Assembly: GCA_945863205.1 (NCBI GenBank)
Contig: CAMAZK010000020.1
Location: 1-32,369, forward strand
Length of the DNA stretch: 32,369 nucleotides
DNA from: Akkermansia muciniphila
GTDB lineage: Bacteria > Verrucomicrobiota > Verrucomicrobiia > Verrucomicrobiales > Verrucomicrobiaceae
Direction: 5' to 3'
Numbering within the stretch: the first letter of the stretch is position 1; every line of letters begins with the position of its first letter. The position numbers and the translations under genes are program-made. Shown piece by piece: positions 13,280-20,168 of the stretch. A model generated the notes under the pieces. It was given only the letters and a program-made list of their open reading frames with translations. It was not told the DNA's origin and did not search any database.

Positions 13280-14374
13280 TCACACTCGGGCAAGCTCCGC
13301 CGCCGCAGCTTGGCGCAGCTCCACGCCGCCGCAACTGGAGCAGGTGGCGATGCCGTCCTGATACCCGGCACCGCAGCGCGGACAAACGGGCTGCGGGGAT
13401 GGGCAGGGCGGGTCGTATTCTTCTTCGGCGATGCCTTCAGCTTCAAAAAAGATGCGCAGCGCCTCGGCAGCGGGCGGGAGGGGGGTGCTTTGCGACCAGC
13501 CGGGCACGTAGCGGGCCTCGCGCCAAAATTGCCGGGCGGTGCGCAGCCAGGCGTCGTGCTTCAGGAGGCTCCGCCAGGCGAGGGGATGGGGCAGCTCTTC
13601 CGGGCCTGCGAGACCGGGCGCATCGGCGGCCCGCATCGCGAGCTGGGGCAGCAGCGCGATGCCCAGCGCCCGCCAGAAGCGGTGCGGAATGAGGGCTTTC
13701 AGGTCACGCGTGACTCGTAGAAAGAGCCAGGCCTGGAGGATCTGCATGAGCAGCAGGACGCCCGCCGCAGCGAGGACGGCGAGGCTGTCTCCATAGTGAC
13801 GATAGACGATGCTGATGACGCCAAAGCACCAGACAAACACCAGCGTGGCCTGCAGCCGCAAGGGTCGTGTGAGGCGGGCTGCATGAATGGCGGCCCGCCC
13901 AGCGCTTGCGGTGTCCAAAGACGCACGGGCATGATGGAGGAAGGCGCTGCGGCGTTGTTCGGCGGGCAGGTCACGCCATTCGGCGAGCCTGCATGCCCAC
14001 ATCTGCGCATGCGCTGGAGATGCGAGTCGCACGCGGACGCCAGCGCCCAGGTGCAGCGTGCTGTCTTCCGCGTGCGGAGTGAGAGTCTGCCAAGGCACGG
14101 CTAGGCGCATGCCGTCCGCCACGCGCAGGTCCAGCGCATCCCGCCCCGGCACGAAAAGCCATTCCTGCCCCTGCGCATGCGCACTCGTGGGCGGAAGCGC
14201 GGAGAGCAGCAGCGGCGAGCCCCCCGCGATCTGAAAACGTGACCATGGGCGGATCACCGTCCATGGCGAGCCCTCGGTCCCTGCGGCCATCCACGACGCC
14301 GAGGGCACCAGCCGCAGGCATTCGGCGAGGTACAGCAGTGCGAAGACCGCGAAGAGCGACTGGCCATCGGTCAT
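13280..14374 (-). CDS. Hypothetical membrane protein with C-terminal zinc ribbon
   Basis: 364 aa. Two adjacent hydrophobic segments lie near residues 170-215 (F-V-W-C-F-G-V-I-S-I-V and A-V-L-A-A-A-G-V-L-L-L), preceded by a soluble region of about 160 residues with an N-terminal hydrophobic start. The C-terminus holds a clear zinc ribbon: C331-P-R-C334 and C345-S-S-C348, followed by a basic/alanine tail. Its ATG at 14374 lies 3 bases after the stop of the DUF2167 gene, so the two are translationally coupled. I do not recognise the family. The zinc ribbon may be structural or may contact another protein. Convergent with the thioesterase gene. Confidence 0.78.
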   Translation of the reverse strand: MTDGQSLFAVFALLYLAECLRLVPSASWMAAGTEGSPWTVIRPWSRFQIAGGSPLLLSALPPTSAHAQGQEWLFVPGRDALDLRVADGMRLAVPWQTLTPHAEDSTLHLGAGVRVRLASPAHAQMWACRLAEWRDLPAEQRRSAFLHHARASLDTASAGRAAIHAARLTRPLRLQATLVFVWCFGVISIVYRHYGDSLAVLAAAGVLLLMQILQAWLFLRVTRDLKALIPHRFWRALGIALLPQLAMRAADAPGLAGPEELPHPLAWRSLLKHDAWLRTARQFWREARYVPGWSQSTPLPPAAEALRIFFEAEGIAEEEYDPPCPSPQPVCPRCGAGYQDGIATCSSCGGVELRQAAAAELARV

Positions 14375-14377
14375 GGG

Positions 14378-15304
14378 CTAGGCGCCGGGTGGCTGCTGAC
14401 GGGAACCGAAGAGTTTTTTCAATCCGGCGATCGCTGCGATCACGAGGAGGATGGCCCCCTTGCCGAGCTTGGCGAAAAAGACGCCGAGCTTCCCGAACAG
14501 TCCCATCTTTGCCGCTGCAAAGGCTCCCGTGCCGGCGATCAGCGCGGTGAGGCCGTACTTCGCCACCTTGTCACCCTCGCGGAACTCGGCGTATCGCTCG
14601 CCTTCGATGTAGCTGTAGCCGTCGATGATTTCTTCATACTGCGGCAGCAGCGACTGCAGCTGTTCAGGATCGCAGATCAGCTTCACGCTCATCACGCCTT
14701 TCCGGCCGAGGAGCTTGGTGTTGTAGTTCACCGAGACGTCACCATCGGGGACGGATTTCACGCGCAGTGCCCATTCGAGGTTGTTGGTCTTGGTGTTGTA
14801 ACGCGGAGGCACGGCCCAGCCGTCCAGCACCAGTTCGTTCATGCCCATCTCCTTGCGGCGGGCGTTGGCCGCCTCCTGACTTTGACTCATCGTTTCCAGC
14901 AGGGCATCGGCGTCGATCTGGTCCTTTTCGTCGTCCTTCACGTAGCCTGACTCGTCGAATTCAAAGAGAATCCAGTGGCCGATCTCCTCGGTGGTCAGCA
15001 CGCCCAGCTCGAGGTCGGAGGGCGGGTTCCCGAAGAGGTGCTTCAGCTTGCGGGCGCCCTCACCATCGGCAAAGCGGTAGCCCCGGGGGATGAAGATCTC
15101 CGCTTTGTCGCCCAGCTTGCCGGATCCCTGGCGTGTCCAGCCGTAGGTTTCGATTTCGGCGTACACCTCCTTCATCTCCGCCTCCTCCTGCTCGCGGGTG
15201 GGTTGCGCCGGAGCTCCAGCGGGGGCGGCCTGCTGAGCGGTGATGGGCGAAAAGGCTGCCAGGCAGGCCAGCAGCACGAGAGGGCGGACAAAGGGGCGTT
15301 TCAT
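14378..15304 (-). CDS. DUF2167 family membrane-anchored protein
   Basis: 308 aa with an N-terminal signal peptide (about 1-24, ending I-T-A-Q). The DUF2167 core is recognisable: a repeated G-Y-R-F-A-D-G-E-G segment, W-I-L-F-E-F-D-E-S-G-Y-V-K-D-D-E-K, and near the C-terminus G-Y-S-Y-I-E-G-E-R-Y-A-E-F with K-V-A-K-Y-G-L-T-A-L. A hydrophobic C-terminal helix (about 270-300, A-I-L-L-V-I-A-A-I-A-G-L-K-K-L-F-G) anchors it, so the main domain is predicted outside the cytoplasm. The family is widespread but without a proven function. It is the first gene of a two-gene operon with the zinc-ribbon protein and divergent from the NADH dehydrogenase fusion, with 146 bases between. Confidence 0.88.
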   Translation of the reverse strand: MKRPFVRPLVLLACLAAFSPITAQQAAPAGAPAQPTREQEEAEMKEVYAEIETYGWTRQGSGKLGDKAEIFIPRGYRFADGEGARKLKHLFGNPPSDLELGVLTTEEIGHWILFEFDESGYVKDDEKDQIDADALLETMSQSQEAANARRKEMGMNELVLDGWAVPPRYNTKTNNLEWALRVKSVPDGDVSVNYNTKLLGRKGVMSVKLICDPEQLQSLLPQYEEIIDGYSYIEGERYAEFREGDKVAKYGLTALIAGTGAFAAAKMGLFGKLGVFFAKLGKGAILLVIAAIAGLKKLFGSRQQPPGA

Positions 15305-15450: not shown

Positions 15451-17472
15451 ATGTCAGAGACTTCCTCCCGCCATTTCGACATTGCCATCATCGGCGGAGG
15501 CTTCGCGGGCGTCTCTTGTGCCCAGCAGGTGCTGAAGCGGCTCGGGCCCACCCACTTGCGTGTGGGCGTGATCGCCAGCGAGAACCACATGGTCTTTCAG
15601 CCCATGCTGCCGGAAGTGGTCGGCGGCTCGCTCTCTCCCCAGCATGTGGTCAATCCCATCCGCATGATCTGCAAAGGGGCTGACGTGCTCAAGGGCGCCG
15701 TGACGACGCTCGATCTCGGAAACCGCGTGCTCACCCTCGATGGCGGACGCTTCTCCTCGAACGTGAGCGTGTCCTTCGATCACCTCATGCTGGCGCCGGG
15801 TGCGGGCGTGGATTTGAGCCGCATTCCCGGCATGTCCGAGCACGCCTACCTCATGCGCACGGTCGGCGATGCCATGAAACTCCGCGCCGCCATCATCAGC
15901 CGCATGGAGGAGGCGAATCTGATCAACAAGGCGCAGCAGCGGAAGGACATGCTCTCCTTTTTCGTCGTCGGCGGCGGCTACTCCGGCGTGGAGACGGCCG
16001 GACAGATCCAGGACCTCATTGCCGGCGTCCGCCGCTACTACGACAACATCGACGAAGGCGAGGCCACGGTGACGCTCATCCACAGCGGCGACCGCCTGCT
16101 CGGCATGCTCGGCGAAAAGCTTGGCAACTACACCGGCGCCTGCCTGGCGAAAATGGGCGTCAACCTCGTCTTCAACAAGCGCGTGCGGGCCGTGACCGCG
16201 CGCACGGTGCAGCTCAACGACGGCACCATGATCACGTCCCATCTCGTCGTCTGCACCGTCGGCAACGCCCCGCATCCGCTCATCAAGGAGCTGGGCGCGA
16301 CCGGTGCCGTGCCGCTGGAGCGCGGCAAGCTGGTGGTGGAGGCCACAGGGCGGGTGAAGGGGCTCGAAAAAGTGTGGTCCGCAGGTGATTGCGCCATGTT
16401 TCCAAAGTCCGATGGCGGCTGCTGCCCGGAGACCGCCCAGTTCGCCATGCGGCAGGGGGCGCTCATCGGCGACAACATCGTGGCCAGCCTGCGGGAGAAG
16501 CCGCTGAAGCCCTTCACCTTCACCGGCCTCGGCGAGCTGGCGACCATCGGCCATCGCAAGGCCGTCGCCATGGTTATGGGCCTGCGCTTCTCCGGCCTGC
16601 TGGCCTGGTTCATGTGGCGCAGCGTTTATCTCATGAAGCTCCCGGGCCTCGACCGCAAACTGCGCGTCATGGCCGAGTGGACCTTCGAGATGTTCTTCCC
16701 GCGTGACATCAACCTGCTCACCCCGAGCTTCTCTTCGCCGCTCGGGGAGATGCATCTGGAGGCCGGTGACTCGCTCTTCCGCTGCGGCGAGCCCGCCCAG
16801 TCGCTCTACGCGGTGAAAAAAGGCTGCGTCGAAATCACCGACGCAAACGGTCAACTCGTGAAGTCCGCAGGCACCGGGGAGCACTTCGGCGAGCGTGCGC
16901 TGATGGGCGATGGCATCTGGCGCTTCGACGCCACGGCGAAGGAGCCCAGCGAGCTCGTCGCCATCGACGGCGGCACTTTCAAGACCCTGGTGAAAAGCAT
17001 CGGCTCCCTCGAGGCGCTCTTCAAATCCACCGCGCAGCAGTATCACCTGCCGGAGGAGATTCAGCGCACGGTTGATGCGATCTCGGAATCCACCCGCCTG
17101 GCGACTGCGGCGGATGTGATGACCCAGGACGTGGCCGCGCTGGACGCGAGCATCTGCGTGCAGGACGCCGTGGAGGAGTTTCAGCGCCGTCCGCACAGCA
17201 CCTATCCCGTCACCGAAGACGGAAAGGTCATCGGCCTGCTGCGGCGCTCCGTGGCCTACGACTGGCTCAAAAATCACGGCCTCACCTGCCGGGACGGATT
17301 GAAAGATCTGCCGCTGACCACACCCTTCTGCGTGCGTGGGAACACGCTGGTCCCCGAACTCATCCAGACCCTGATGCGCACCGGCGTGAGCAAAGCCGTC
17401 GTCGTCGATGCCGACCACCGCCTCCTCGGCATGGTCACCGTCTTCGACCTCCTCAAAGGCCCGCGTCCCTAG
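15451..17472 (+). CDS. Type II NADH dehydrogenase fused to cyclic-nucleotide-binding and CBS domains
   Basis: 673 aa from the ATG at 15451; an upstream in-frame ATG at 15376 was rejected because the extra residues lie before the Rossmann strand and are not conserved-looking. Residues 1-420 are an NDH-2-like flavoprotein: FAD motif G-G-G-F-A-G at 15-20, NAD(P)H motif G-G-G-Y-S-G at 174-179, the FAD-contact S-A-G-D-C (D313), and the amphipathic C-terminal membrane-binding region around 378-420. Residues about 431-530 form a cyclic-nucleotide-binding domain with F-G-E-R-A-L and an R491 at the phosphate-cassette position. Residues 553-600 and about 615-673 are a CBS pair. NDH-2 passes electrons from NADH to quinone without proton pumping; the added domains suggest ligand control. 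It is single and divergent from DUF2167. Confidence 0.92.
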   Translation: MSETSSRHFDIAIIGGGFAGVSCAQQVLKRLGPTHLRVGVIASENHMVFQPMLPEVVGGSLSPQHVVNPIRMICKGADVLKGAVTTLDLGNRVLTLDGGRFSSNVSVSFDHLMLAPGAGVDLSRIPGMSEHAYLMRTVGDAMKLRAAIISRMEEANLINKAQQRKDMLSFFVVGGGYSGVETAGQIQDLIAGVRRYYDNIDEGEATVTLIHSGDRLLGMLGEKLGNYTGACLAKMGVNLVFNKRVRAVTARTVQLNDGTMITSHLVVCTVGNAPHPLIKELGATGAVPLERGKLVVEATGRVKGLEKVWSAGDCAMFPKSDGGCCPETAQFAMRQGALIGDNIVASLREKPLKPFTFTGLGELATIGHRKAVAMVMGLRFSGLLAWFMWRSVYLMKLPGLDRKLRVMAEWTFEMFFPRDINLLTPSFSSPLGEMHLEAGDSLFRCGEPAQSLYAVKKGCVEITDANGQLVKSAGTGEHFGERALMGDGIWRFDATAKEPSELVAIDGGTFKTLVKSIGSLEALFKSTAQQYHLPEEIQRTVDAISESTRLATAADVMTQDVAALDASICVQDAVEEFQRRPHSTYPVTEDGKVIGLLRRSVAYDWLKNHGLTCRDGLKDLPLTTPFCVRGNTLVPELIQTLMRTGVSKAVVVDADHRLLGMVTVFDLLKGPRP

Positions 17473-17500
17473 CCGCGCCCGCCAAGGCGTGGTTCCCCTC

Positions 17501-17592
17501 GTGAAACCGGCTGCCAGCCTGTGACCTGGGAGGGCAAAGCCCAAGGGTGAAACAGGCTGCCAGCCTGTGACTTGGGAGGGCAAAGCCCAAGG
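17501..17592. repeat. Two tandem 46-bp repeats made of hairpins
   Basis: The units 17501-17546 and 17547-17592 agree at 44 of 46 bases by hand count. Each holds a palindrome around G-C-C-T (in copy 2 ACAGGCT GCC AGCCTGT, a perfect 7-bp stem) and a second one around CTTGGG...CCCAAG. A further perfect hairpin GCGAGG GCGT CCTCGC follows at 17594-17609. The array lies between the end of the NADH dehydrogenase fusion and the end of the DUF1080 gene and is non-coding. Confidence 0.75.
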
Positions 17593-17902
17593 AGCGAGGG
17601 CGTCCTCGCCCCGTCTGTCACCCAGCGCAGCCTTCCTCCCAAAAACCAGGCGAGTGGTCTGCGACACACACGCGCTCTTTGGGGACGGGGGACGGGCTGA
17701 AGCCCGAACTACGAACCAGAATCCTCTGCGTCCCCCGCCTCTTTGCACCTCTGCGGTCAACTCGCGCGTTTTTGCCCCGTTTTTCTTCGCCGCGCTCCCA
17801 TGCGAGGAAGTTTGTCCCCCCGCTTCCTGGACGGGAAGGAAAAGTAGCCCTGTTCCTGCGGAACAGTTTTCGATGCTCCAGTTCCGCAGGAACTGGACAA
17901 CT
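17593..17902. repeat. Non-coding repeat-rich gap with dispersed-type intergenic elements
   Basis: Nothing protein-coding is convincing here. A hairpin CGGGC TGAA GCCCG lies at 17693-17706. The segment 17723-17760 (CTCTGCGTCCCCCGCCTCTT, then TGCACCTCTGCGGTCAA) resembles the widespread intergenic repeat class built from CTCTGCG and CTTTGCG words, recalled from cyanobacterial, chloroflexal and verrucomicrobial genomes rather than searched. Next comes a C/T-rich stretch, then the mirror hairpin pair at 17850-17896. Confidence 0.5.
17850..17896. terminator. Pair of inverted-copy hairpins at the DUF1080 3' end
   Basis: Two perfect hairpins stand side by side: 17850-17866 (7-bp stem, loop TGC) and 17878-17896 (8-bp stem, loop GCA). 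The core of the second, GTTCCGCAGGAAC, is the exact reverse complement of the core of the first, GTTCCTGCGGAAC. They lie 7 bases beyond the stop of the DUF1080 gene, the right place for its transcript end, but no strong T-run follows directly. Termination or 3'-end protection is inferred. Confidence 0.45.
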
Positions 17903-18538: not shown

Positions 18539-18648
18539 GGGTGGGGTGGTGGTCAGTTCGGGGTGCATCAAACGTCGAGATCACGGCCATGCCATCATCT
18601 TTTTCGTTCGGACGATATTCCTCCTGCTCCCCTGCGTTTTATCCGCCC

Positions 18649-19356
18649 ATGAAACTCCGCCATCTGCTCCTCCTCATCGCTGTTTCCACCAGCGCCATGG
18701 CTCAAAAAGCTCCCGCACCGAAGAAACGCGCCCCCAATCCGGCGCTGGCCAAAATCGAGGACGTGGCCGGGCTGCCGCGCGTGCTGCTCATCGGCGACTC
18801 CATCTCCATCGGCTACACCCTCACCGTGCGCGAGCTGCTCGCGGGCAAGGCCAACGTCCACCGCATCCCCGCCAACGGCGGACCGACGACGAATGGCCTC
18901 AAAGGCATCAAGGAATGGCTCGGCGACTCGAAGTGGGACGTGATCCACTTCAACTGGGGCCTGCATGATTTGAAATACATCCAGGATGATCCGTCAAAGC
19001 GCGCCGATCCGAAGGCCGAAGGCTCGCATCTGCAGGTGGCGCTGGCGGATTATGAGAAGAACCTGACCGAACTCGTCAAAATCATGCAGGGCACCGGCGC
19101 GAAGCTGATCTGGTGCAGCACCACGCCGGTGCCGGAAGGCTCCGATGGCCGCATCATGGGCGACGAACTCAAGTACAACGAAGCCGCCGCCCGCGTCATG
19201 AAGGCCGCCGGCATTCCCACCGACGATCTGCACGCCCACGCCGCCGCCAAGCCGGACGCGCAACTCCCCGCGAACGTCCACTACACGCCGGAAGGCTCGC
19301 GTTACCTCGCGGAAAAGGTCGCCGCCGTGATCACAGAGTACCTGCCGAAAAAATGA
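18649..19356 (+). CDS. Secreted SGNH/GDSL hydrolase, copy 1
   Basis: 235 aa from the ATG at 18649, chosen because it starts a signal peptide ([18 protein letters not shown], then Q-K); the longer upstream frame has no such start. Block I is [10 protein letters not shown] with nucleophile S51. The block around N102 (H-F-N-W-G-L-H-D) supplies the probable oxyanion residue, and H211 in N-V-H-Y-T-P-E-G is the expected catalytic histidine. The residue three before this histidine is A208, where classic family members have aspartate. Likely an exported esterase or deacetylase acting on carbohydrate decorations; substrate unknown. Its stop overlaps the start of copy 2 by four bases (ATGA at 19353-19356). 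Confidence 0.9.
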
Positions 19357-20168
19357 AGCCGCTCATCTTCCTCCTCGCCTCCGTCTCGCTGCTTGGCGCC
19401 CAGGTCAAATCGCAAAACGAACCCACCAACGCCGCCGAGGCCACCGCGAAAAAAGCGGCTGCGGATCGGGCCGTCGATGAAAAGTATCAAGCGTGGAAGG
19501 CCGCGCTTCCAGCCGATCAGCAGGCCTGGGAAACCGTGCTGGAGCAGTGCCTCGGAGGCTTCTACCTGCCGATTCACAAGAAAGAGAAGATCACCGGGCG
19601 CTCGAACGCCTGGGACTTCGTCCAGGACGATCCAAAGCTCCCTCGCGTGCTCCTCATCGGCGATTCCATTTCCCGTGGCTACACGCTCGACACGCGCAAG
19701 GCGCTCGCCGGCAAGGCGAACGTGCATCGCGCACCCGAGAACTGCGGCCCGACCGCCAATGGCGTGAAGAAGATCGAGATCTGGCTCGGCGACGGCCAAT
19801 GGGACGTGATCCACTTCAACTTCGGCATCCACGACCGCAAAACGCCTGCGGCTGATTATGAGCAACGGCTTGAGACGCTGATCGCCCGCATGAAGCAGAC
19901 CGGCGCGAAGCTCGTCTTCGCCACCACCACGCCCGTCCCGCCGGACACGAAGGACGGCCCCGAACTCGTCACCCAGATCGCCGAGAAAAATGAAATCGCC
20001 CTCCGCGTGATGAAGCAGCACGGCGTCGCCATCGACGACCTCCACGGTTTCCTCGCTCCCCAGCTCGAAGATATCGCCAATCCGCAGGACGTACACTACA
20101 ACGCCAAAGGCTACGCCCTGATGGGCCAGCAGGTGGCCAGTTCGATAGAAGCGGCTTTGCGCAAGTGA
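19353..20168 (+). CDS. Secreted SGNH/GDSL hydrolase, copy 2
   Basis: 271 aa with signal peptide ([16 protein letters not shown], then Q-V). It starts inside the stop of copy 1, so the two are translationally coupled. It is clearly paralogous: both have [19 protein letters not shown] and W-D-V-I-H-F-N at the same spacing. It differs by an inserted helical segment of about 55 residues between the signal peptide and block I ([14 protein letters not shown]). Nucleophile S105, oxyanion N156, histidine H248. The residue three before H248 is Q245, with D246 two before, so the usual aspartate position is again altered. Role as for copy 1; substrate unknown. Confidence 0.9.

Follow-up and report, generated by a model that had tools for sequence, protein, structure and literature searches.

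Background

Type II NADH dehydrogenases (NDH-2) such as Ndi1, mycobacterial Ndh and the enzymes of C. thermarum and S. aureus combine two dinucleotide-binding motifs with an AQxAxR motif and a C-terminal membrane domain; for most bacterial representatives we know of no allosteric control. The dinucleotide motifs and the AQxAxQ and AQxAxR variants have been defined previously, and a WxxG motif in the NADH domain is present in 99% of 1762 NDH-2 sequences (PMC5299459). The acidic residue E272 of Ndi1 has been proposed to exclude NADPH, although the donor specificity of NDH-2 is not predictable from one residue, and fungal NDH-2 with an EF-hand regulatory domain are known (PMC11670749).

CBS pairs that bind AMP, ATP or c-di-AMP (CorB/CorC CNNMs, CBSX, DarB and OpuCA) carry T-x-x-D in their second domain. 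The cyclic-nucleotide-binding (CNB) domains of PKG and CNG channels contain an FGE(R/K)A segment and a phosphate-binding Arg; in CNB domains the Glu of this cassette contacts the ligand ribose. The CNB domains of trypanosomatid PKA regulatory subunits bind purine nucleosides rather than cAMP (PMC10959531).

The locus described here lies in a window (the whole stretch of DNA analysed) of 32,369 nucleotides from Akkermansia muciniphila. Its product shares with NDH-2 the fold and the elements listed above, and differs in an additional CNB-CBS tail of 250 residues, a His at the position equivalent to E272 and the lack of the WxxG Trp. Like the fungal EF-hand enzymes it joins an NDH-2 core to an added regulatory domain, with calcium-binding EF-hands in that case and CNB and CBS domains in this one. 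An earlier, sequence-only reading had stated that NDH-2 enzymes normally lack regulatory domains; exceptions exist in the fungal types (PMC11670749), but no description of a CNB- or CBS-fused NDH-2 was found in the searchable literature. The NDH-2-like enzyme with a CNB-CBS tail is thus undescribed in that literature, and its CNB domain is probably not a receptor for cAMP or cGMP.

Gene and domain architecture

The gene and its domains were delimited as follows:

15451..17472, + strand: whole gene, 673 aa, with an ATG start at 15451 and a stop at 17470–17472
15475..16458, + strand: FAD and NAD(P)H dinucleotide-binding domains, residues 9–336 (Pfam PF07992, conserved columns)
16528..16707, + strand: NDH-2 C-terminal membrane-anchor domain, residues 360–419 (PF22366, conserved columns)
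16750..16995, + strand: CNB-fold domain, residues 434–515 (PF00027, fold matches)
17092..17457, + strand: CBS pair, residues about 548–669 (two PF00571 domains, fold match, conservation)

The reading frame was open throughout. The ATG at 15451 was preferred to a longer GTG form from 15376, because most relatives start at the ATG position and have no match to the GTG form. An antisense ORF of 768 aa (15454–17760, − strand) was considered, and regarded as a mechanical shadow of G+C-rich codons.

A domain search of the full protein placed all five Pfam domains above their curated cut-offs: Pyr_redox_2 (4.7e-43), NDH2_C (2.7e-11), cNMP_binding (8.6e-18) and two CBS domains (1.1e-15). A full-length AlphaFold model, made with 48 family members as input (mean pLDDT 86), matched NDH-2 structures with Z of about 40–48; Ndi1 was matched over residues 1–424 and the top Foldseek match was mycobacterial NDH2. 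When the CNB-CBS tail was modelled alone (pLDDT 89), its CNB part gave Z of 15–18 against CNB structures (about 17.8 for a CNG channel and 16 for PKG I), while its CBS part gave Z of about 15–16 against known CBS pairs. Pfam, the AlphaFold model and Foldseek thus confirmed the earlier proposal that NDH-2-like, CNB and CBS parts are combined in one chain.

The catalytic core retained the motifs expected of the fold. GxGxxG (G15, G17 and G20) and GxGxxGxE (G174–E181, with G176, G179 and E181) were invariant in the family, and E181 corresponds to the catalytic Glu of S. aureus NDH-2, E172. A GD pair was found at residues 312–313, and the quinone-site motif AQxAxR at 329–334 (A329, Q330, A332 and R334). 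The membrane domain showed the family-conserved pattern WR..YL.KLP...R....W....FF.RDI. The whole protein was under purifying selection.

Relatives and phylogeny

One scan of a species-representative collection recovered 44 loci, nearly all full length, from Verrucomicrobiota and Kiritimatiellota. When 387 genomes of the phylum were searched in six frames, the fusion appeared in several families, where it coexists with a shorter, CBS-less form and with an ordinary NDH-2 of about 430 residues. Occurrence outside the phylum was sampled through plasmid records, which contained a cousin fusion with CNB and CBS domains in Gemmatirosa (L076; Gemmatimonadota) and a CNB-only cousin in Rhodobacter sp. 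CZR27 (Alphaproteobacteria). A chimeric assembly join was ruled out, since about 40 independent loci in other genomes share the same architecture in a single ORF. One member of the full family (L075 and neighbours, on contig C64 of genome G189) was spread over several frames; it is a frameshifted pseudogene, or the assembly is in error.

For the tree, the CNB columns were dropped and the catalytic part was used by itself. The window protein and its close relatives, which have Trp or Tyr at residue 490 (the aromatic clade; 41 members, on which all residue counts below are based), formed one group with support of 89, nested among CNB-bearing relatives of which most have Arg. A sister clade (L059–L063) has an NDH-2 core and a degenerated CNB domain, in which FGE is replaced by I/V-D-Q and Trp is kept, and has no CBS domains; this is apparently a later stage of the same loss. 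Among the cousins L064–L072 and L076, the canonical P-R cassette was present in nearly all.

The phosphate-binding cassette

The cassette of the CNB domain was located as follows:

16885..16938, + strand: phosphate-binding-cassette segment FGERALMGDGIWRFDATA, residues 479–496
16918..16920, + strand: Trp490, at the canonical phosphate-binding Arg position (W or Y in 41/41)

FGERAL occupied residues 479–484 and its FGE was invariant in the clade; Glu481 was kept in all members of the 41-sequence alignment and the following Ala, A483, was retained. Position 490 was Trp in 35 sequences, Tyr in six and Arg in none, while position 491 was Arg in 35, Leu in five and His in one. Members of the Pelagicoccus group have Leu and L037 has His, with conserved surroundings in both.

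Several comparisons bore on the register of these two positions. HMMER aligned the cassette of Plasmodium PKG (PfPKG) with FGERALMGDGIWRFDATAKEP without gaps, and the PKG Arg fell opposite W490, not R491. BLOSUM scores against PKGs and L058 were 40–45 when ungapped and 30–32 when R491 was forced onto the Arg, a penalty of 8–13 units. Column 490 was Arg in 12 of 13 cousin fusions outside the aromatic clade, and the canonical P-R occurred in at least five other CNB-domain proteins of the same genome. Judged by alignment, it is W490, and not R491, that takes the place of the phosphate-binding Arg; R491 is both out of register with the PKG, own-genome and sister-clade sequences and poorly conserved.

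The sequence-only reading had cited FGERAL and R491 for its cyclic-nucleotide-binding domain. Both are present, but R491 lies one residue away from the pocket position; of the two cassette residues expected in a functional CNB domain, sequence alignment recovered the Glu and found Trp where the Arg should be. A classical switch, with the CNB domain binding cAMP or cGMP and thereby changing dehydrogenase activity, would require R491 to act as the phosphate Arg within a longer, CRP-like cassette. CRP-type cassettes have one extra residue ahead of the Arg, and to place R491 in the pocket would take a one-residue deletion after it. The retention of Glu481 and the following Ala, the frequency of Arg at 491, the canonical cassettes of the cousin clades and the presence of several class III cyclases in the genome are all consistent with such a switch. 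It is nevertheless improbable, given the alignment register, the substitutions at 491 amid an otherwise conserved segment, and the best structural matches (5v4s and 7tj6), in which every model residue of the matched span was aligned and no space was left for an insertion on the model side. Control by a cyclic nucleotide, as first proposed, was consequently not supported for the aromatic clade, where an invariant aromatic replaces the Arg and R491 is unaligned and variable.

R482 of FGERA was considered as a substitute Arg and rejected because PfPKG carries the same FGERA together with the canonical P-R; L056 has Ala at this position.

The phosphate-binding Arg was probably lost once, since the earlier-branching cousins retain the canonical P-R cassette. 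The simplest reading of the sequences is one replacement, early in the aromatic clade or just before it; the earlier placement is suggested by the Trp in the same column of the degenerated, CBS-less sister clade. The domain shares its fold and FGE(R/K)A segment with those of PKG and CNG channels, whose phosphate Arg is Trp here. Trypanosomatid PKA has likewise lost this Arg and kept a ribose-contacting Glu, and it demonstrates that CNB domains without the Arg can turn into nucleoside receptors (PMC10959531); it differs in having an extra Glu in place of the cassette Ala, whereas the window protein keeps A483 and has an aromatic in place of the Arg.

Selection on the CNB domain and motifs of the CBS pair

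In each of the 10 estimable pairs of close relatives, the CNB domain had a lower dN/dS than the catalytic core (e.g., 0.021 against 0.065 in comparison with L003), these values being used just to rank the domains because dS was close to saturation. A decaying CNB domain was ruled out on this ranking. Since it held in every estimable pair, the CNB domain performs some sequence-dependent role.

The adenosyl motif G-h-h-T/S-x-x-D was present in CBS2 as GMVTVFD, with T663 in 35 of 41 members and D666 in all. It was not found in CBS1, which reads GLLRRSV in the window protein and had no T-x-x-D among the members listed; the described ligand-binding pairs share the fold and the CBS2 motif, and the window protein differs from them in this first domain. 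There is thus at most one canonical adenosyl site, and from the motif one such site in the pair is plausible. The earlier suggestion of control by adenine nucleotides through the CBS pair is plausible and half-supported, one motif being kept and the other lost. Cousins L064–L072 and L076 have T-x-x-D in CBS1 and not in CBS2, so that their surviving motif lies in the opposite half to that of the aromatic clade.

These observations also bear on whether the CNB-CBS tail is a ligand-free structural or oligomerisation module that holds the enzyme assembled or placed at the membrane. Such a role would fit the loss of the phosphate Arg and the persistence of a CNB-like remnant in L059–L063, which lack FGE and CBS domains, and a packed interface would match the very low dN/dS. 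We consider it rather unlikely, however, because the CBS2 pattern is retained, with D666 invariant and T663 mostly so, and no member has lost the ribose-contacting Glu481.

The NAD(P)H site

Two residues of the NAD(P)H site departed from ordinary NDH-2:

16081..16083, + strand: His211, aligned with E272 of Ndi1 (comparison with Ndi1 and further NDH-2 sequences)
16252..16254, + strand: Cys268, where NDH-2 have the WxxG Trp (alignment with paralogues)

His211 was found in 41 of 41 members of the aromatic clade, while the ordinary paralogues have Glu or Asp. The WxxG Trp was replaced by Cys, Ser or Thr in the CNB-bearing clade and was Trp in the ordinary NDH-2 paralogues of the phylum. L112 and L074, which are NDH-2-like and have no CNB domain, already have His at 211 and retain the WxxG Trp; His211 may therefore predate the fusion.

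The earlier reading had likened the protein to NDH-2. Its motifs, fold and membrane domain agree with this; the acidic residue that selects for NADH has changed, as has the WxxG Trp, and the name 'NDH-2-like' is used here for that reason. This unusual site also makes the electron donor uncertain. Instead of a respiratory NADH dehydrogenase, the enzyme could chiefly be a quinone reductase that uses NADPH, or both NADPH and NADH, with for instance an antioxidant or quinone-pool-reducing function. The invariant His211, Cys268 and the retention of Glu/Asp and Trp by the ordinary paralogues make this a real possibility, if somewhat short of an even one, and against it stands the finding that no single residue predicts NDH-2 donor specificity (PMC11670749). 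Use of NADPH would agree with the explanation preferred below, and would alter what the tail regulates.

Genomic context

In the window, the fusion gene is flanked by ORFs of the opposite strand. A constant operon partner was not seen among the relatives, whose adjoining ORFs vary (judged on position and size alone). Upstream in the window are a DUF2167 protein gene (14378–15304, − strand; 5e-68) and, adjoining it, an ORF whose C-terminal segment is zinc-ribbon-like (13280–14374, − strand). Two neighbouring SGNH/GDSL hydrolase genes (18646–19356 and 19458–20168, + strand) are apparently a tandem duplication. Between 20000 and 26000, G+C falls to about 0.55, compared with 0.60–0.67 elsewhere, and this stretch encodes a PAS histidine kinase, a LuxR-type response regulator and a hybrid kinase.

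The same genome encodes an ordinary NDH-2 and complex I, together with several class III cyclases and one c-di-AMP synthase. The cyclases and synthase indicate that candidate ligands exist in this genome, with no tie to the NDH-2-like fusion. Given these enzymes and the two other dehydrogenases, the fusion appears to be an extra, possibly regulated, entry point for electrons.

Proposed explanation and significance

The preferred explanation, to which we give about even credence, is an NDH-2-like NAD(P)H:quinone reductase whose conserved CNB-CBS tail is regulatory and whose CNB domain has been repurposed away from cAMP and cGMP. The protein would be a peripheral-membrane FAD enzyme; most likely it oxidises NAD(P)H and hands the electrons on to the quinone pool. 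Its CNB domain derives from a genuine cyclic-nucleotide-binding domain in which the phosphate-binding Arg became an invariant Trp or Tyr; with that Arg lost, the CNB domain of the clade is probably unresponsive to cAMP and cGMP. It might sense a non-cyclic ligand through the retained ribose-binding Glu481, or act as a conformational relay from the CBS pair to the membrane domain that immediately precedes it in the chain. The CBS pair, in which one adenosyl motif is intact, would be the more likely nucleotide sensor, responding to ATP, AMP or c-di-AMP. By analogy with trypanosomatid PKA, it can be suggested tentatively, as a possibility we hold to be on the doubtful side, that one Arg-to-aromatic change made the CNB domain a receptor for a non-cyclic metabolite, i.e., a nucleoside or other adenosyl compound.

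With its fused sensor tail, this conserved family allows control of electron entry by a ligand to be tested directly, and its canonical-cassette and aromatic branches are a natural experiment on the change or loss of a CNB ligand. If the CNB domain is indeed a receptor for a non-cyclic metabolite, a metabolite would directly control how electrons enter the quinone pool, and the family would be a bacterial counterpart to the nucleoside-responsive PKA of trypanosomatids.
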